A DNA stretch of 64,000 bases. It comes from Phycisphaerae bacterium. Its GTDB lineage: Bacteria > Planctomycetota > Phycisphaerae > Sedimentisphaerales > Anaerobacaceae. The position numbers and the translations under genes are program-made. The DNA lies in contig JAGOLX010000021.1 in the NCBI GenBank assembly GCA_017993835.1, forward strand, positions 1 to 64,000, given 5' to 3'. How positions within the stretch are numbered: position 1 is the first letter of the stretch; the number at the start of each line of letters is the position of its first letter. The notes below the pieces were generated by a model. It made no database searches. It saw only the letters and a list, made by a program, of their open reading frames with translations, and had not been told where the DNA came from. This document shows positions 4,524 through 38,840 of this stretch, piece by piece.

Positions 4524-5489
4524 CTACACTTCCTCGGTGCAGGCGACGCCCAGGACATCCGTGATGCGCTCGAACTCGTCGATGGAATCGAACTCGATCG
4601 TGATCCGTCCGCTGCGACCGTTTCTTCTGGTCTCGATGAAAACGTGTGTGCCCAAATGGCGACTGAGCTTGGTCTCCAGGTCAACAATATTGGCGGGCTT
4701 GGCCTTACCGGTCGTCCTGGGACCCCCCTGCTCGGCTATGTGGGCGCGGACGAGTCGCTCGACCTCGCGGACGCTGAGCCGCCCTGCCAGGGCGCGATTG
4801 GCCAGCTTGCGTCGCAGCTCGTCTGTGGGCAGAGCGAGGATCGCCCTGGCATGGCCCATGGTGAGTTGGCCGTCTATGAGCATCTGCTTCAGCTCGTCCT
4901 GTAAGTCCAGCAAACGCAAGTAGTTGGCGATAACCGAGCGGTCTTCGCCAAGTCTTTCGGCGGCCTGTGCTTGGGTCAGAGAAAAGGCCCCCAGGTAGTG
5001 TTGGTAGGCCTTGGCACGTTCGATCGGGTTCAGGTCGCGGCGATGGATATTCTCGACGAGCGACCACTCGAAGAGCTGTTCATCGGTGACTTCGCGGACG
5101 ACAGCGGGAATCGTGGCCAAGCCGGCCATCTGTGCCGCACGGAAGCGCCGCTCGCCCGCGATGAGCTGGTACCCACCCTGCCAGGGTCTGACGATGACCG
5201 GCTGGATGACGCCATTGGCCTTGATGGAATCCGCCAGCTCGCGGAGGTCCGCGTCATTCCACACGGTTCGTGCCTGATACGGATTGGGGCGGATTGCGCC
5301 CACAGCGACCGTCTGAAGCGAGTCACGGACGTCTGTGTCTGGTGGCAAACCAACTAACTCAGTAGTCTCGCGGGGCTGTTCCTGAACGATACGGTCCGAC
5401 AGGGGTGCCGCAGTCGCTGTTATGGGACCCAATAGAGACTCCAGCCCCCTGCCGAGATGCCTTGGCTTATCGCCCTTCGCCATGCTCAT
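4524..5489 (-). CDS. parB: Chromosome partitioning protein ParB (ParB/Spo0J family)
   Basis: A CTP-dependent clamp that loads at parS centromere sites and spreads on DNA to drive origin segregation. The product is 321 residues, a normal length. ATG 5489 is preceded by GAAGGAG at good spacing; the longer frame would need a TTG start inside that site. Visible features: the N-terminal LGRGLESLLG peptide that usually contacts ParA, the CTP-binding box with GERRFRAAQ, the ENIHRRDLNPIE helix, the helix-turn-helix (about 155-200) and a C-terminal dimerisation domain. No parA is present in the window; upstream lies a 1.4-kb region with two parS-like sites. A promoter candidate lies at 5535-5564. Confidence 0.96.
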   Translation of the reverse strand: MSMAKGDKPRHLGRGLESLLGPITATAAPLSDRIVQEQPRETTELVGLPPDTDVRDSLQTVAVGAIRPNPYQARTVWNDADLRELADSIKANGVIQPVIVRPWQGGYQLIAGERRFRAAQMAGLATIPAVVREVTDEQLFEWSLVENIHRRDLNPIERAKAYQHYLGAFSLTQAQAAERLGEDRSVIANYLRLLDLQDELKQMLIDGQLTMGHARAILALPTDELRRKLANRALAGRLSVREVERLVRAHIAEQGGPRTTGKAKPANIVDLETKLSRHLGTHVFIETRRNGRSGRITIEFDSIDEFERITDVLGVACTEEV

Positions 5490-26488: not shown

Positions 26489-27190
26489 TCAATGGTACCC
26501 GGCGCCGGGATAGAGGAGGTTCAAAGCCAGGCCGTGAGCGGGGCCGAGCAGACCGCCGATCACGTTCCACGCGATGACCAGGCCCACCATGCCCGCAGCG
26601 GGCTGGGCCATGAACTCCCGATAGCGAGCGGCTGCACGGTCGTCGAGAAACAACGTGAGGATCTCGCTGCCGTCGAGCGGGGGCAGCGGCAGCAGATTGA
26701 AGACCAACAGAATCAGGTTCAGCGAGAACAGAACGCTGATCACGACCGCGGCGCCGGCCATCGGGCCCGGGGACCGGGCGACGGTCACCTGAGTCCAGGC
26801 GGATTCCAGGGGCGCCATGAACAGGTCGAGGGCCACGCCGATCCGGATGAGTATCGCGGCCAGGAGAATCAACGCCAGGTTGGCGACCGGACCCGCCAGG
26901 GCCATCCAGGCCGCCTTCCTGCGGTTGCTGATCGCCCAGTAGGGATCGTACGGGGTGCTCGCCCAGCCGAGCATCCAGCCGCCGAACAGGAAGGACACGA
27001 TGGGAATGGCCACCATTCCGATAGGCGATCGCTGAATGTGCGGAACCGGGTCGAGCGTCGCCAGACCGGCGTCTCGCGCGGTGGGATCGCCCAGCGCCAG
27101 CGCGGCGAATCCATGGGCGGCCTCGTGACAAGTCGTCGAGATCACGAACACCGCGTACCAGACCAATCCGAGTCCCAGTTCGACCGGCAT
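26489..27190 (-). CDS. Site-2 protease family (M50) membrane metallopeptidase
   Basis: The product is 233 residues with about five or six membrane helices. The zinc motif HEAAH (22-26) lies in the first helix, and the second metal motif NLLPLPPLDG (165-174, Asp173) is late. This is the compact SpoIVFB/Rip-like form without PDZ or CBS domains, cutting substrates within the membrane. No substrate gene is evident nearby. ATG 27190 follows a modest AAGGG site. The 55-base gap to GH95 suggests co-transcription. Confidence 0.9.
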   Translation of the reverse strand: MPVELGLGLVWYAVFVISTTCHEAAHGFAALALGDPTARDAGLATLDPVPHIQRSPIGMVAIPIVSFLFGGWMLGWASTPYDPYWAISNRRKAAWMALAGPVANLALILLAAILIRIGVALDLFMAPLESAWTQVTVARSPGPMAGAAVVISVLFSLNLILLVFNLLPLPPLDGSEILTLFLDDRAAARYREFMAQPAAGMVGLVIAWNVIGGLLGPAHGLALNLLYPGAGYH

Positions 27191-30912: not shown

Positions 30913-31818
30913 TCAGGTGCTCACATGAGATGTGCCGTCCGCAGCCGGCTCCTGGCTGGGGAGCGGAATTGCCCGCGTCCTGGGGAAGATCCTGCCGTAG
31001 AGCCATCTGACGAAGCTACCTGCCGCGAAGTACCCGAAGATCAGAACCATCGCTGTCTGCACGCTGCTAAAGCAGACCAGCGAGAGGAGCAGGAGGAGCC
31101 GGATGAGGTAGTCAAACGGCTGTCTGCCCTTGAGGTACACGTTCACGATGTGCGGATACCGAAGCCGGCTCACCATGAGGACGCCAACGCCCAGCGTCGC
31201 CAGCGGCAGCGCATACACCAGCAGGCTCAGGGTGGGGACCTGCTCCTGCTGGAAGATGATCAGACTGACGACGACGCCGGCCGCTGCGGGACTGGGCAGG
31301 CCGGCGAAGCTCATGTGCGAGACCTCATTCTCGTCGTTCTCGACGTTGAAGCGGGCCAGTCGAATCGCGGCACAACTGAAGTACACCAGCGCCGCCAGCC
31401 AGATGAACCGGTGAATCAGACCCCCCCAGAAGATCTCGTGGAGCTGCAATTCGTTCTCGACGAGCCGGAGCATGATGAACGCGGGCGCAGCTCCGAAGCT
31501 GACGAGATCGCAGAGGCTGTCGAGCTGGCCGCCGAAGCTCGATGTGCTCTGGCTCATACGCGCCAGCCGGCCGTCCAGCATGTCGGCAACCATGGCCAGC
31601 ACGATCACGTATCCCGCCAGCGCGAAGCAGGACATCTTGCCCGCCGTCGGTTCATGAGCCTTGCTCGCCAGGACGATGGCGGTGAATCCAAGGATCCCGT
31701 TGAGCAGCGTAACCAGCGAGGGCAGGAGGGTGACGTACTTGACGCGATGCCGTCGAACACGACGGAACAAAGGCCGCCTGGGCTTGTCATCCATCATTCT
31801 TCGATGTCTACCGCTCAT
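30913..31818 (-). CDS. pssA: CDP-diacylglycerol--serine O-phosphatidyltransferase
   Basis: Makes phosphatidylserine from CDP-diacylglycerol and serine in the membrane. The product is 301 residues with about eight helices. The CDP-alcohol phosphotransferase motif DG-x2-AR-x8-G-x3-D-x3-D is complete (Asp82, Gly83, Ala86, Arg87, Gly96, Asp100, Asp104). The start ATG at 31818 overlaps the end of psd by 11 bases, so the two are translationally coupled: psd comes first, the product of this gene being its substrate. Confidence 0.95.
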   Translation of the reverse strand: MSGRHRRMMDDKPRRPLFRRVRRHRVKYVTLLPSLVTLLNGILGFTAIVLASKAHEPTAGKMSCFALAGYVIVLAMVADMLDGRLARMSQSTSSFGGQLDSLCDLVSFGAAPAFIMLRLVENELQLHEIFWGGLIHRFIWLAALVYFSCAAIRLARFNVENDENEVSHMSFAGLPSPAAAGVVVSLIIFQQEQVPTLSLLVYALPLATLGVGVLMVSRLRYPHIVNVYLKGRQPFDYLIRLLLLLSLVCFSSVQTAMVLIFGYFAAGSFVRWLYGRIFPRTRAIPLPSQEPAADGTSHVST

Positions 31819-32533
31819 GGTCTTCCTGCTGTTGCCGCCGCGGCGACGTCGGCGCGTACTTCACAAGCGGCGTGAGTCCCGCTTTGACCTTGTCCCCGAT
31901 GCGAACCAGGCACTCCACGCTCTCGCTGGCGGAGAGATACAGCTCGGTTCGAGACCCGAACTTGATCATGCCGAACTGCTCACCGCCGGCGAGTCGCTGG
32001 CCTTCCTGGGCGGCGCAGACGATCCGACGCGCGATCGCCCCGCTGATCTGGCGGACGAGGAGCCTGTCCTGGGGCTCGCTCGTTCGCACCATGGACAGGT
32101 TGTTCGACTCGTTCACCTGGCCCGCCCGCGGACTCATCGCATTGAGATACTTGCCGGGACGATAGACGATTCGTTCGACCTTCGCGTCACACGGTGCACG
32201 GTTGATATGCGTGTTGAAAATGCTCAGGAAGATCCCGACGCGGAGGGCCGGACCGTCGATGAATTCGGCTTCCTCGACCATCCCCACATCGGTGATCGTG
32301 CCGTCGGCCGGCGACAGCAGGAGACTGTCATCTCGCGGCGGCTCGCGTCGCGGGTCTCGAAAGAACATCAAGGCCCACCCCAGGGTGATCGCGAGAATCG
32401 CCTCGATGGCGACTACCCCCCAAAGGGGCGATAACTCGGGCCCGAACACACCCACGGCGGCCATCAACAACAGGACAACCGCCGGATACACCACAACCTC
32501 AGGCAACCCGTACTTCGTCAATGGAATTCGCAT
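31808..32533 (-). CDS. psd: Phosphatidylserine decarboxylase proenzyme
   Basis: Pyruvoyl enzyme that makes phosphatidylethanolamine. The product is 241 residues, the short type. Two N-terminal membrane segments (about 12-30 and 38-56) precede FFRDPRREPP, SPADGTI, FNTHINRAP and the self-cleavage site FGSR (Gly193-Ser194), where the serine becomes the pyruvoyl group. ATG 32533 begins only 10 bases after a strong promoter -10 box, so the mRNA may have almost no leader. Together with pssA it makes phosphatidylethanolamine. Confidence 0.95.
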   Translation of the reverse strand: MRIPLTKYGLPEVVVYPAVVLLLMAAVGVFGPELSPLWGVVAIEAILAITLGWALMFFRDPRREPPRDDSLLLSPADGTITDVGMVEEAEFIDGPALRVGIFLSIFNTHINRAPCDAKVERIVYRPGKYLNAMSPRAGQVNESNNLSMVRTSEPQDRLLVRQISGAIARRIVCAAQEGQRLAGGEQFGMIKFGSRTELYLSASESVECLVRIGDKVKAGLTPLVKYAPTSPRRQQQEDHER

Positions 32534-32873: not shown

Positions 32874-32996
32874 CTTGCGTTTTCCGAAGGCGGGGAGTGT
32901 ACGACCTCGCTTTGACCGCAGATGCCCACAAGGCTATCCGTCTTGGCTGCAGCGGCGAAATGAGATGAGAAGAACGGTAAGAAGGAGAAATCCAGA

Positions 32997-35705
32997 ATGA
33001 AAGAGTCAGCGGTGGAAATGAATAGAAACAGGCCCAGGCCAGCGGCGGCGTCCGATGAATTTCGGGTCAATGCTGCAGGGTATCTGGAGCGCGGCTGGGT
33101 CATCGCGAACCACAAGCTCGTCTCGTTCCACGCCGCATTTATTTCGTCCGTGCTGAGCCTGCCCGTCAAGGAGCTGAGCGAAAAGGCCATCGCAGGGGCC
33201 AATCTGAAGCTCGAAGTGCTGAAGTTCATGTTCCTCAGCGTCGAGACCATCGTGTCGTTGGCCATTCTGTACTTGTCGTGGCATATCGCCATCGCGATTC
33301 ACGAGATGGGCCATTTCCTGACCGCCGCCAAGCTGACGGCTCTGAACAAGGACTCACAGGAGAAGGCGGACGCCGCCCTGAAGAGCGGTGGCAAATTCGG
33401 CTATTACGCCCAGATGCTCCTTCTGATTCCGTGGGGCAAGTTCTACGGCGTGAGGAAAGAGAACGGTAACTTCGCACCCGACGCGCCATACAACCTGGCC
33501 GTGTCGGCGGCCGCGCCGATCTGGAGCCAGTGGCTGGCCACGATCTGTTTGCCGATTGCCGCGTTCTTCATCGCAGTGGGATTGCTGGCAGGGCAGGAAT
33601 GGATGATCTACATCGGCCGGTTCTTCCTGGCACCGGGCGTGGTTGGCCTCCTGGACCGATTCCTGGCCGACCCCGGCAAGCTGAAGGAATTCCGCAACCG
33701 CGAGAAGGCCGCCGCGGAAGCCGCTGCCCGAGCCGCTGCGATCGCCGCCTCCGGCGAGGCATGGACCGCCCGCGTCGCCCAGGTCAAGAAGACCATGCTC
33801 ACCACCCGTATGCAGACCGTCACCCTCAAAGATGGCAGCCGTGTCGCCGCCCCCTGGCAGTTCCGTAACTGCGCCATGGGTGGCCGTCACACGGAGAAAG
33901 AGTACCCCGAGAGCAACATCAGCATGCAGGAGAGTATGTTCATGCCGCTCTCGCCGAAGACCTACGAAGACTCCCAGGAGATGACGGTCAAGTTGCAGTC
34001 CCGTCTGAAGGAGATCATCGAGTCCGCCCCAGGCGCGAAAGTCATGGGCGTCGGTCTCGAAGGCGGCATCGCCCCCTACATCGACAAAGAGCCCACGGAT
34101 CAGGTCCCCGAGCAGCGTATGTGGCGCTTCATGAAGCAGGCCATTCTGGACTGCGAGCTCGTGCCCGGCGTGGATGTCGCCATCGCGCTGGACCCTGCCT
34201 GCTCCGAGCTGGAGAACGCCTATCGCGAGGAACGCGGCGAGCCGGATTCCGTCGGCATGTACCGCTTCTGGCGTGACAAGGACAAGGTCGAGATGAGCCG
34301 CGACCAGATCCTTACTCTCTTCAAGAAGTCCATGGAAGACGGCATCCCGATCCTCTCCATCGAGGACGGCTTCGGCGAACGCGACCACCAGGGCTGGCAG
34401 AACATGATGAAGGAGCTTGGCGACAAGATCTTCATCATCGGCGACGACCTGGTCACCACGAAGGACTCGAACATCGAGAAGTGCGCCAAGAACGGCGAAA
34501 TCAACGCGTCCCTGATCAAAGCAAACCAGATCGGTACCGTGACGGAAACCGTGCTGGCCATGCTGACCTCGCTGGGCTACGGCGCCGAACTGGTCATCTC
34601 GCACCGCTCCAAGAGCCCGAACGATCCGTTCGAGGCGGAAATCGGAACCGCGATGAATGCTCTCGGCGTCAAGTGCGGCGGCGGCGCCAACACGGAGCGT
34701 CTCCAGAAGTACGGTCGCGTCATGGAGATTCTGGCTTTGGCCCGCTCTTCGCAACGCAGCATGACCGACAAAGAGCGCAAGGAGACCCAGGAAACCGTCA
34801 AAGAACTGGTGAAGACCCTGACCGGTCAGGACGTTGCGATCAAAGGCGACGCCGGCGACATCGACATCACCGGCCTGCTCATCAAGATGCTCGCGATCGA
34901 GGCCGTCAGCGGCACCGAAGAGGCGACCAACGCCGGCATTCCGTCGGCCGCTGCCTCCCTGTTCCTCGGTAAGAGCGGCATCATCCGCTTCAAGGGCTCG
35001 ACTCCTCTGGGCACCAGCGCCGGCGAGGACGAGGCCATTCACTACGTCGATAGCATCATCGAGGCCTCCGAGGCGACCAAGAAGTACCCCGATATGTTCA
35101 AGAATATCGGCGACGGCACCTTCCGCTTCAAGAAGGACGTCAAGGTCGCGGACGTCAAGGCCAAGAACGATGAGAAGCTCATGGCCCTCTGGAAGAAGTC
35201 CCGACGGTACGACGGCAAGGGTTGCATGGACGCGGTCAGTCACATCGAAGGCGTGCTCGCCAAGGCGTTCGTCGGCCGCAAGGTCGGCCAACTGGGCAGT
35301 CTGCTCGACGCGGACAAGGAACTGCTGGGTCTCGAACTGGGCGAGGCCATTCGCATGGGCCGGATCCCGCAGGATGCCCCAAGGGACAAGAAGATCCATG
35401 CCATGCAGCGAAAGAGCGTGCTCGGCATGAACGCCATCCTGTCCATGTCGCTGGCTCTGGGCCGCACGGTGGCCGCCGGACAGGGCAAGGAACTCTGGCA
35501 GCTCATCCGCGAGATGTCGGCCGACACGATGTCCAAGTTCGTGGCCGCCAACGCCAAGGGTGAGAAGAAGAGCGCCGCGGACCTCAAGAAGATGGACTAC
35601 GACCAGCTCCAGGCGCTGTATCAGAAGACAGCGACTGAGGCCATCAAGGAAGGCAAGACGCTCTACGAGCTGCTGCGGGCTCAACTGCCGGTCTATCCGG
35701 TATAA
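32997..35705 (+). CDS. M50-like membrane domain fused to a circularly permuted enolase
   Basis: The product is 902 residues. Residues about 30-230 form a multi-helix membrane domain with the metalloprotease motif HEMGH (102-106) and a late Asp220. Residues about 285-580 match the enolase C-terminal barrel: GGRH (His298), QE (Glu312), LEGG (Glu355), metal ligands Asp399, Glu456, Asp483, Lys508 in LIKANQIG, SHRS (His536), Lys559 in VKCGGGANTERLQKY. Only after this, at about 630-900, comes the enolase N-terminal lid domain: PLGTSAGEDEA (Ser674, the mobile loop), GKGCMDAVSHIEG, and KSVLGMNAILSMSLALGR. The protein ends LPVYPV, the point where a normal enolase passes from lid domain to barrel. So the order is swapped, with a linker at about 585-625. 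All catalytic residues appear kept. Start ATG 32997 follows AAGGAG. Confidence 0.88.
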   Translation: MKESAVEMNRNRPRPAAASDEFRVNAAGYLERGWVIANHKLVSFHAAFISSVLSLPVKELSEKAIAGANLKLEVLKFMFLSVETIVSLAILYLSWHIAIAIHEMGHFLTAAKLTALNKDSQEKADAALKSGGKFGYYAQMLLLIPWGKFYGVRKENGNFAPDAPYNLAVSAAAPIWSQWLATICLPIAAFFIAVGLLAGQEWMIYIGRFFLAPGVVGLLDRFLADPGKLKEFRNREKAAAEAAARAAAIAASGEAWTARVAQVKKTMLTTRMQTVTLKDGSRVAAPWQFRNCAMGGRHTEKEYPESNISMQESMFMPLSPKTYEDSQEMTVKLQSRLKEIIESAPGAKVMGVGLEGGIAPYIDKEPTDQVPEQRMWRFMKQAILDCELVPGVDVAIALDPACSELENAYREERGEPDSVGMYRFWRDKDKVEMSRDQILTLFKKSMEDGIPILSIEDGFGERDHQGWQNMMKELGDKIFIIGDDLVTTKDSNIEKCAKNGEINASLIKANQIGTVTETVLAMLTSLGYGAELVISHRSKSPNDPFEAEIGTAMNALGVKCGGGANTERLQKYGRVMEILALARSSQRSMTDKERKETQETVKELVKTLTGQDVAIKGDAGDIDITGLLIKMLAIEAVSGTEEATNAGIPSAAASLFLGKSGIIRFKGSTPLGTSAGEDEAIHYVDSIIEASEATKKYPDMFKNIGDGTFRFKKDVKVADVKAKNDEKLMALWKKSRRYDGKGCMDAVSHIEGVLAKAFVGRKVGQLGSLLDADKELLGLELGEAIRMGRIPQDAPRDKKIHAMQRKSVLGMNAILSMSLALGRTVAAGQGKELWQLIREMSADTMSKFVAANAKGEKKSAADLKKMDYDQLQALYQKTATEAIKEGKTLYELLRAQLPVYPV

Positions 35706-35939: not shown

Positions 35940-36419
35940 ATGCAACGGCACAGTATCCTTCGCTTCCTGGTCTTCGTGGTGTTCTTCAGCAGCGGGGCCG
36001 CAGCGCTCGGCGGTGCGGTCCTGTGCGACGATTTGATCCGGTATTGCCGCAATAGGGAGGTCCTCAGGGAAGCGGAGTCGGCCATCCGTCGGCTCGAATC
36101 TCTCAACGCGGAATACGACGTCCTCCTGGAACAACTGGAGAACAATCCCGAGCTGCTCAAGCGGATCGCTCCGGTGACGCTGGGCACGGAGCCCAACGAC
36201 CCGAACACAGCCTATCCCAAAGCCCGGGCTCGCGAACTCGCCCTGGCCCGCAAGGCGGTGATAGATCATGTCGGCGAGGAGCCCGCCGAGGCCGCCATCC
36301 CGACCTGGCTTCAGCGATGCAGCGATCCCCCCAAGCGGATCGTCCTGTTCATCAGCGGCGCCAGTCTCATCTTGATTTCCATGGTCTGCTTCACGTCGCC
36401 CGGCGACGACGAGAAATAG
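35940..36419 (+). CDS. Small membrane protein with a coiled-coil middle
   Basis: The product is 159 residues. A hydrophobic N-terminus (FLVFVVFFSSGAAALGGAVL, about 9-28), a helical stretch with heptad character (REVLREAESAIRRLESLNAE, about 38-58 and on to 75) and a C-terminal membrane helix (about 133-153). Both ends anchored with a coiled coil between recalls septum or envelope scaffold proteins, but I see no family signature. The ribosome binding site is weak (GGGGAC). It follows the enolase fusion by 234 bases, with a small hairpin (CTCTGAAG/CTTCAGAG) between. Confidence 0.6.
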   Translation: MQRHSILRFLVFVVFFSSGAAALGGAVLCDDLIRYCRNREVLREAESAIRRLESLNAEYDVLLEQLENNPELLKRIAPVTLGTEPNDPNTAYPKARARELALARKAVIDHVGEEPAEAAIPTWLQRCSDPPKRIVLFISGASLILISMVCFTSPGDDEK

Positions 36420-36633: not shown

Positions 36634-37038
36634 TCAGGTGGCTACGAGGTTGACCCGTCCGAGCTTGACGCCCTTCATGCTCAGGATGCTCTCGCCCACG
36701 CGGTTGATCTCACCGACCTGGCCGCGAAGGACGATGATCTCCAGGCAGTCGTGGTGGTCCAGGTGGACGTGCAACGACGAGATCGCGTGCAGCAGGTTCG
36801 AGTGCTGGATCGCGATCAGCTTCTCCGCGAGATTGGCGGCGTGGTGGTCGTAGACGAGAAAGACCGCCGCCACTGCGTGGGCCTCCGGGTCAGACACGCG
36901 TTCCTGGCTCAACTGCTGGCGAACCAGGTCGCGGATCGCCTCCGAGCGGCTCTGGTACCCCTGCTTGGCAATGAGCTTGTCGAAGTCAGCCAGCAGGTCC
37001 TTGTCCAACGACACCCCGATGCGTTCGATCTCTGCCAT
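36634..37038 (-). CDS. nikR: Nickel-responsive transcriptional regulator NikR
   Basis: Ribbon-helix-helix repressor with a C-terminal ACT-like nickel domain. The product is 134 residues. The RHH part (about 1-45) starts IERIGVSLDKDLLADFD. The nickel ligands correspond to His79, His90, His92 and Cys98 (in QHSNLLH, LHVHLDHHDCLE). Its ATG overlaps the stop codon of metXW (TGATG), so translation is coupled to methionine synthesis genes rather than to a nickel transporter, which is unusual; no nik or nickel-enzyme gene is in the window. Confidence 0.93.
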   Translation of the reverse strand: MAEIERIGVSLDKDLLADFDKLIAKQGYQSRSEAIRDLVRQQLSQERVSDPEAHAVAAVFLVYDHHAANLAEKLIAIQHSNLLHAISSLHVHLDHHDCLEIIVLRGQVGEINRVGESILSMKGVKLGRVNLVAT

Positions 37039-38840
37039 CAGTCTTTCCTGCAACAATAGACCGCCTGTTCGGCGAACACGTTCGCGCCAAATCGGATCGG
37101 ACTGGCGCTCGTTTCCACGAGGGGGATTCTCTGCTCGATGGTGACGCCCAGCTTGCGACAGAACTCGTCGAAGTCCTTCAGGGACAGGAAGTGGATGTTC
37201 GGCGAGTTGTACCAGCGGAAGGGGAGTTCTCGCGTCACCGGCGAGCGGCCCCAGAAGAGCATTTGCAGGCGGCACCGCCAGTGGGCGAAGTTTGGGAAGC
37301 TGACGATCACCTTGCGCCCGACGCGGAGAAGCTCTCTGAAGACCCGCTCCGGGTCTTTGATCGTCTGGACCGTCTGGGACAGGAGTGCGTAGTCGAAGCT
37401 CTTGTCCCCATAGCCGCGGAGGCCACGATCGATATCGCGTTGCACGACGGAAATCCCCCGGCAGACGCCGCCCAGAACGAGCGATTCGTTCAGCTCGATG
37501 CCCTTGCCGCGAATGCCCTTGTCGGCGGTCAGTCGAGCCAGTAGCTCTCCGTCGCCGCAGCCGACGTCCAGGACCGTGCTGCCCGGCCCGATCAGCGACT
37601 CGATCAGCTCGTAATCCACGCGGGTCCGATGGGCCTGTTCGGACCGTGCGACCCGGCATCGCCCTTTACAGCAATCGCCCAGCGCCCCGGCGTTCACCCC
37701 CGGCCGGCGGGCCGCCCTCAGGAAACTCGACAAGAACGCGCCCAATCTCTCGTCTTCGAGCAGAAAGGCGTCATGCCCGTAGCCCGAAGCGATGTCGCAG
37801 TAGCTGACGTCCTTGCCGTTGGCGACGAGGGCGTCGACCATGGCTTCGGATTGCTCCGGCGTGAACAGCCAGTCGCTGCTGAAGCTGACCACAAGGAAAC
37901 GGGCCTGCACGCCCGCGAAGGCTTCCTGCAGCGACCCGTAGTCCCTGGGGAGATCGAAATAGTCCGCTGCCTTCGTGATATACAGGTAGCTGTTCGCGTC
38001 AAACCGGTCGACGAAGGTCTGACCCTGGTGGTCGAGATAGGTCTCGACCGCGAACTCCGGGTCGAACTCATAGCTGTACTTCTCGGAACCGCGAAGCTCG
38101 CGTCCGAACTTCTGACGCATCCCTTCCTCGGACAGATAGGTGATGTGCCCGATCATGCGGGCGATGGCCAGACCTTGGCCTGGAACCTCGCCCTGGTGGT
38201 ATTGCCCGCCTGCAAAGTTCGCATCGGCCAGGATGGCGTTTCGACCCACCGCGTCGAATGCGATGGACTGGGCTCCCAGGTGCGTTGTCGTCGCGATGGG
38301 GATGGCGGCATCCATCATGTCCGGATAGGCGAGTGCCCATTGGATCGTTTGCATGCCACCGATGGAGCCGCCAATCACAGCCAGCAGGTGCCTGATGCCC
38401 AAGGCGTCGAGCAGGAGCTTCTGGACCTTGACCATGTCGGCGATGGTGATAATAGGGAAGTCGAGGCCATACGGCCGGCCGGTGGCGGGATTGATCGACG
38501 AGGGACCCGTGGTCCCGGCGCAGCCGCCGAGGAAGTTCGAGCAGATCACGAAATACTCGTTCGTGTCGATCCCTTTGCCCGGCCCGACCATTCCCTCCCA
38601 CCAGCCGGGCTTCTTGTCGTCGGCGCCGTGGCAGCCGGCCACGTGAGCGTTGCCGCTCAGCGCGTGGCAGATGAGGATCGCGTTGTCCCTGGCGTCGTTG
38701 AGTCGGCCGTATGTTTCGTAGGCGACGTCGATCGGCCCGAGCGTCTTGCCGCACTCCAACTGCAACGGCTGGTCCTGCGGGACAAGCCGGATGATCCGGG
38801 TCTCCACCAGACCCACCGAGTTCTCATTGCCATTCGTCAT
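37038..38840 (-). CDS. metX: Fused MetX-MetW: homoserine O-acetyltransferase with MetW methyltransferase-like domain
   Basis: Acylates homoserine for methionine synthesis. The product is 600 residues. MetX part (about 1-375): alpha/beta-hydrolase with catalytic Ser159 (GGSIGG), Asp323 (SSDWLF) and His356 (GYGHDAF), plus the family stretch LGGCAGTTGPSSINP. MetW part (about 400-600): SAM-binding-like motif VLDVGCGDGELL (423-434), and FPNFAHWRCRLQMLFWGRSP, a MetW hallmark. In proteobacteria metX and metW are adjacent separate genes; here they are one frame. It overlaps nikR by one base. A promoter sits immediately before the start, leaving almost no leader. Confidence 0.95.
   Translation of the reverse strand: MTNGNENSVGLVETRIIRLVPQDQPLQLECGKTLGPIDVAYETYGRLNDARDNAILICHALSGNAHVAGCHGADDKKPGWWEGMVGPGKGIDTNEYFVICSNFLGGCAGTTGPSSINPATGRPYGLDFPIITIADMVKVQKLLLDALGIRHLLAVIGGSIGGMQTIQWALAYPDMMDAAIPIATTTHLGAQSIAFDAVGRNAILADANFAGGQYHQGEVPGQGLAIARMIGHITYLSEEGMRQKFGRELRGSEKYSYEFDPEFAVETYLDHQGQTFVDRFDANSYLYITKAADYFDLPRDYGSLQEAFAGVQARFLVVSFSSDWLFTPEQSEAMVDALVANGKDVSYCDIASGYGHDAFLLEDERLGAFLSSFLRAARRPGVNAGALGDCCKGRCRVARSEQAHRTRVDYELIESLIGPGSTVLDVGCGDGELLARLTADKGIRGKGIELNESLVLGGVCRGISVVQRDIDRGLRGYGDKSFDYALLSQTVQTIKDPERVFRELLRVGRKVIVSFPNFAHWRCRLQMLFWGRSPVTRELPFRWYNSPNIHFLSLKDFDEFCRKLGVTIEQRIPLVETSASPIRFGANVFAEQAVYCCRKD

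Follow-up and report, generated by a model that had tools for sequence, protein, structure and literature searches.

What is an enolase doing behind a membrane domain that carries an HExxH motif, and is that domain a protease or just an anchor? The question is raised by a single open reading frame of 902 amino acids in the window, i.e., the whole stretch of 64,000 nucleotides that was analysed. The gene lies at 32997-35705 on the forward strand, as do all its parts described below. It starts with an ATG at 32997, and a Shine-Dalgarno-like AAGGAG, read from the sequence, is placed 9 bases 5' of the start (32982-32987). Enolase is nearly universal and among the most conserved enzymes of life, and its standard order is the cap followed by the barrel. 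The gene product is most probably (about 0.75) a membrane-tethered, circularly permuted enolase that would be able to replace the soluble enzyme, and its membrane domain is probably M50-derived.

Sequence comparison places the enolase domains in reversed order, the barrel first and the catalytic cap second, with the cut exactly at the domain boundary. Pfam detects Enolase_C at residues 287-578 and Enolase_N at residues 803-837, i.e., the barrel before the cap. In a profile-profile comparison with canonical planctomycete enolases, residues 286-580 (TIM barrel, 33852-34736) correspond to canonical 148-415 (E 2.4e-40) and residues 635-849 (N-terminal cap, now 3' of the barrel, 34899-35543) to canonical 4-146 (E 6.7e-12); residues 1-285 have no match to these enolases, and the usual cap-before-barrel order is absent. 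The old C-terminus and the old N-terminus of the enolase are bridged by about 55 variable residues (linker 581-634, 34737-34898; shorter in the L028 relative), and the cap is followed by a C-terminal tail of 53 residues (850-902, 35544-35702). Enolase_C (PF00113) scores 157.5 bits on the query against a cut-off of 21.5. Both Pfam families are matched in all 22 members, which bears out the enolase identity proposed by the sequence-only reading, where the swapped domain order had gone unnoticed. Enolase_N (PF03952) reaches a best E of 4.5e-14 among the 22 members and 49.4 in L028, but only 31.9 on the query itself, below the cut-off of 35. The NCBIfam eno equivalog (TIGR01060) gives 191 bits and does not reach its cut-off of 300, as expected because the match is split. 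The barrel of the full-length structure model superposes on solved enolases (Z 23.8, rmsd 3.4 over 276 residues), with model residues 281-583 placed on chain residues 137-421. The same fold search matched solved enolases over the barrel only and did not place the cap, the placement of which rests on sequence. In a tree of the barrel, the permuted sequences fall into one group with strong support, and the canonical enolases of this phylum lie far from it.

An arrangement of this kind could be produced by gene prediction or assembly fusing unrelated genes, and the source data are indeed draft genomes. This explanation, the probability of which is close to nil, is already refuted by the homologues: the same architecture recurs without interruption in over 20 independent genomes, including two single-contig ones, at 49-91% identity (47-85% to the query in the membrane parts, over 22 homologues). 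In a one-genome-per-species collection, relatives were found at 20 loci, all in Planctomycetota MAGs and mostly labelled Sedimentisphaerales or Phycisphaerae. The gene is common within the taxonomic family to which the window's genome belongs. Of 392 genomes drawn evenly from the phylum, only the window's own, G277 and G301 have it, the latter two from other families. No relative was found in the viral contigs searched. Two further matches and two apparent gene defects were rejected. The match in G177 (L031) sits in a probable ATP-synthase operon and is due to chance, and that in G021 (L030) is a 35-aa fragment resembling the N-terminal motif, in a short frame (about 5386-5487, reverse strand) where the rest of the protein is absent. 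The seemingly truncated gene of G424 has its missing end masked with X rather than lost, and both pieces of the seemingly split gene of G435 stop at contig ends.

The catalytic equipment of the enolase is retained. Catalytic positions were mapped to yeast enolase numbering by motif and alignments: S39 corresponds to S674, H159 to H298, E168 to E312, E211 to E355, D246 to D399, E295 to E456, D320 to D483, K345 to K508, H373-R374 to H536-R537 and K396 to K559. All these residues are invariant in the alignment of 22 sequences, as are the further equivalents Q311 (Q167) and S538 (S375), and S674 belongs to the catalytic loop PLGTSAG in the cap. The changes relative to the yeast enzyme are D210 to Leu, T40 to Ala and GETED to KSPND; in addition, 5 residues are inserted between the positions equivalent to H159 and E168. 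The dN/dS ratios are 0.035-0.07 for the barrel, 0.08-0.29 for the cap and 0.11-0.17 for the membrane part, and therefore all three are under selection. Compared with canonical enolase (PF03952 plus PF00113, TIGR01060), the fusion shares both domains, with 30-32% identity where they align, and all the classical catalytic residues, whereas the reversed domain order, the new linker, the C-terminal tail, the N-terminal membrane domain, the inserts in the cap and the substitutions above are its own. We infer a working, membrane-tethered enolase.

The protein might instead be another enzyme of the enolase superfamily, acting on a membrane-linked phospho-compound. The fusion to a membrane domain, the altered D210 and GETED positions and the deep split that sets the protein apart from canonical enolases in the tree would all fit, and the psd and/or pss genes that adjoin the gene, in the window as well as in several relatives, would point to lipid metabolism. 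However, several other relatives have different neighbours, all the classical catalytic and phosphate-binding residues of enolase are kept, and carriers of the gene tend to lose the canonical enolase. A fusion in G301 also speaks against such an enzyme, which is unlikely. There, the relative (L028, 3981-10421, reverse strand) is one frame of 2178 amino acids in which the permuted enolase is followed by about 900 residues that match no Pfam family and then by the PPDK_N and PEP-utilizers mobile domains of pyruvate phosphate dikinase/PEP synthase (PF01326, PF00391); the C-terminal PEP-binding barrel was not matched in this fusion. Both PPDK-like domains are absent from the window's protein. Their attachment in G301, which also has a canonical enolase, gives an independent link to PEP. 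Most of these genomes contain ordinary genes for PPDK, which may use PEP.

Support for an enolase function comes from the canonical gene, which tends to be absent where the permuted one occurs. Among the genomes of the window's family that are at least 85% complete, tallied by hand and with G469 left out, 11 of 18 carriers of the permuted gene lack the canonical enolase, as against 1 of 39 non-carriers (present in 7 and 38, respectively). The Fisher test gives p 1.8e-6, a value that is indicative only and overstates independence because the genomes are mutually related and mostly draft MAGs. The single-contig genomes G422 and G423 contain the permuted enolase only, and the permuted form appears to be the sole enolase in several carriers, a surprise for so conserved an enzyme. 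In G469 (L127, contig C500), the canonical gene is frameshifted, its barrel is partly deleted and the catalytic C-terminus is gone, while the permuted copy is intact; barring an assembly error, this looks like a replacement in progress. The window's own genome has an intact canonical enolase besides the permuted one, which may therefore have another role there.

The permutation suggests how a membrane-bound enolase could be built. The barrel would be suspended by its N-terminus on the cytoplasmic side of the membrane, a tethering made possible by the permutation, and the cap, now C-terminal, would fold back over the active site and supply the loop with the Ser39 equivalent. The interconversion of 2-phosphoglycerate and PEP would thus take place at the membrane surface, and the soluble enolase could become replaceable. 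The barrel is joined to the membrane domain by a connector (residues 226-285, 33672-33851) that is basic, Ala-rich and, according to hydropathy and the structure model, helical.

The membrane domain covers residues 28-225 (33078-33671), as delimited by hydropathy and predicted helices. Hydrophobic segments are found at about 35-53, 70-104, 167-207 and 201-224, and the structure model predicts helices at 34-53, 82-112, 164-198 and 201-222. The HEMGH motif (residues 102-106, 33300-33314) lies inside the predicted membrane helix 82-112, and Asp220 (33654-33656), the candidate third metal ligand, lies within VVGLLDRFLADPG (VVGLLDRF). The motif, the hydrophobic segments and the aspartate had all been noticed from the letters alone, and both sites are invariant in the 22 homologues. 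The fusion of an enolase to a membrane domain whose HExxH helix resembles that of M50 is likewise real and is conserved across more than 20 genomes of planctomycetes. When residues 1-285 are shuffled, an HExxH motif arises in 0.4% of cases. H102, E103, H106 and D220 remain invariant down to 47% identity of the membrane part, although this is not specific by itself because about 80 of the 285 columns are invariant.

The HExxH helix probably comes from the M50 family; membership of the domain in that family is not established. Of the resemblance to M50 proposed around both motifs, the first half stood. The HExxH helix, and that helix only, aligns by hhalign with planctomycete RseP-type M50 of the same genome group at 94% probability. 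The second half did not: the Asp220 segment has no similarity to M50 LDG segments by hhalign. The remark that NxxPxxxLDG is only partly kept was accurate, as only L219-D220 is retained (invariant), N, P and G are lost and the Asp is followed by Arg or Phe, whereas reference M50 proteins of the same genome group keep an NxLPxxxxDG-type motif. The peptidase family PF02163 is matched in 18 of the 22 members (best E 2.6e-5), but its gathering cut-off of 27.2 bits is never reached (14.7 for the query, 25.4 for the best member). When the membrane domain was compared by profile with the PDB, chance matches alone were obtained. With a pLDDT of 68.6, the AlphaFold model is weak, and Foldseek and VIA searches with the membrane model retrieved helical bundles only; the S2P structure 3b4r appears among unrelated helical proteins (Z 6.2 over 70 residues) in a non-homologous register, from this same weak model. 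Between HEMGH and Asp220, and in the order of M50 proteases, lie a predicted short pair of strands and an AAGP-like motif, which reads AAAP in the query (residues 171-174, 33507-33518) and AAGP in L028, the likeness to the AGP motif of M50 being judged by eye. These residues fall inside the stretch covered by the weak PF02163 match. In comparison with RseP, SpoIVFB and mjS2P, the fusion shares an HExxH in a long hydrophobic helix, followed by the AGP-like motif and a conserved Asp. On the other hand, it has no PDZ or CBS domain, and the attached glycolytic enzyme and an extra invariant N-terminal motif are its own. This motif, GWVIANHxLVxFHxAFISS (residues 33-53, 33093-33155), contains His39 and His45, which together with the likewise invariant His96 may provide additional ligands for a metal or cofactor.

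If the N-terminus is inside, as a weak charge bias suggests, HEMGH and Asp220 would each be close to the cytoplasmic end of its helix, and the enolase would be cytoplasmic. The domain is probably derived from an M50 protease, and HEMGH plus Asp220 may still bind a metal. The M50-like site could then sense or bind the metal, cut something, or be a relic. An active intramembrane metalloprotease would hold zinc at HEMGH/Asp220 and cut the connector, releasing a soluble enolase, or cut another membrane protein according to the state of glycolysis. The invariance of the four residues, the purifying selection on the membrane part, the PF02163 matches, the RseP-type helix, the AAGP-like motif with its strand pair, and the position of both sites as deduced from hydropathy and helix direction are in favor of it. 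Nevertheless, the best score stays under the Pfam cut-off, the second motif is reduced to L-D in a segment that no M50 profile resembles, and the PDB fold search gave no convincing S2P match; activity of this kind is less likely than not. The combined scenario, in which the permutant displaced the canonical enolase in some planctomycetes under the control of an active attached metalloprotease able to release it, is unlikely.

A non-catalytic anchor, left by a decayed M50 protease and serving solely to hold the enolase at the membrane, has somewhat better prospects, although still short of an even chance. Most of the second M50 motif is lost, and the enzyme part, as judged from the barrel ratios above, is better conserved than the membrane part. 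However, a mere anchor would have no need for an HExxH and an Asp220 that stay unchanged among such distant homologues, and a pure relic is disfavoured because the site is invariant. Anchoring or regulation appears somewhat more likely than proteolysis.

Neither a natural circularly permuted enolase nor an enolase-M50 fusion was found in the literature searched, which covered open-licence papers and is not proof of absence. One candidate precedent for a permuted enolase, PMC1570152, was rejected, since its passages concern an artefact of superposition that affected a single test pair, not a permuted enolase. A natural permutant that is seemingly able to replace enolase would indicate that attachment of the catalytic cap also works from the opposite side, and the fusion would bring a central step of glycolysis to the membrane. 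The protein offers a direct test of the effects of permutation, tethering and a protease-like domain on a core enzyme. Annotation is also at risk, as such organisms may be called enolase-negative or the gene may be called a protease.

The surroundings of the gene include a typical M50 site-2 protease (HEAAH, NLLPLPPLDGS) at 26573-27154 on the reverse strand of the window, about 6 kb from the fusion. Divergent from the fusion, the reverse-strand genes at 30913-32533 read as phosphatidylserine synthase and decarboxylase, and several relatives, for example L009, L012, L014, L019 and L020, have one or both of them next to the fusion gene. Just downstream, 35940-36419 on the forward strand encodes a small membrane protein of 159 amino acids, and similar small reading frames also lie downstream in L009, L019 and L020. 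Farther on, a single reading frame at 37038-38840 on the reverse strand reads as a putative homoserine O-acetyltransferase (MetX) joined to a MetW-like methyltransferase domain.
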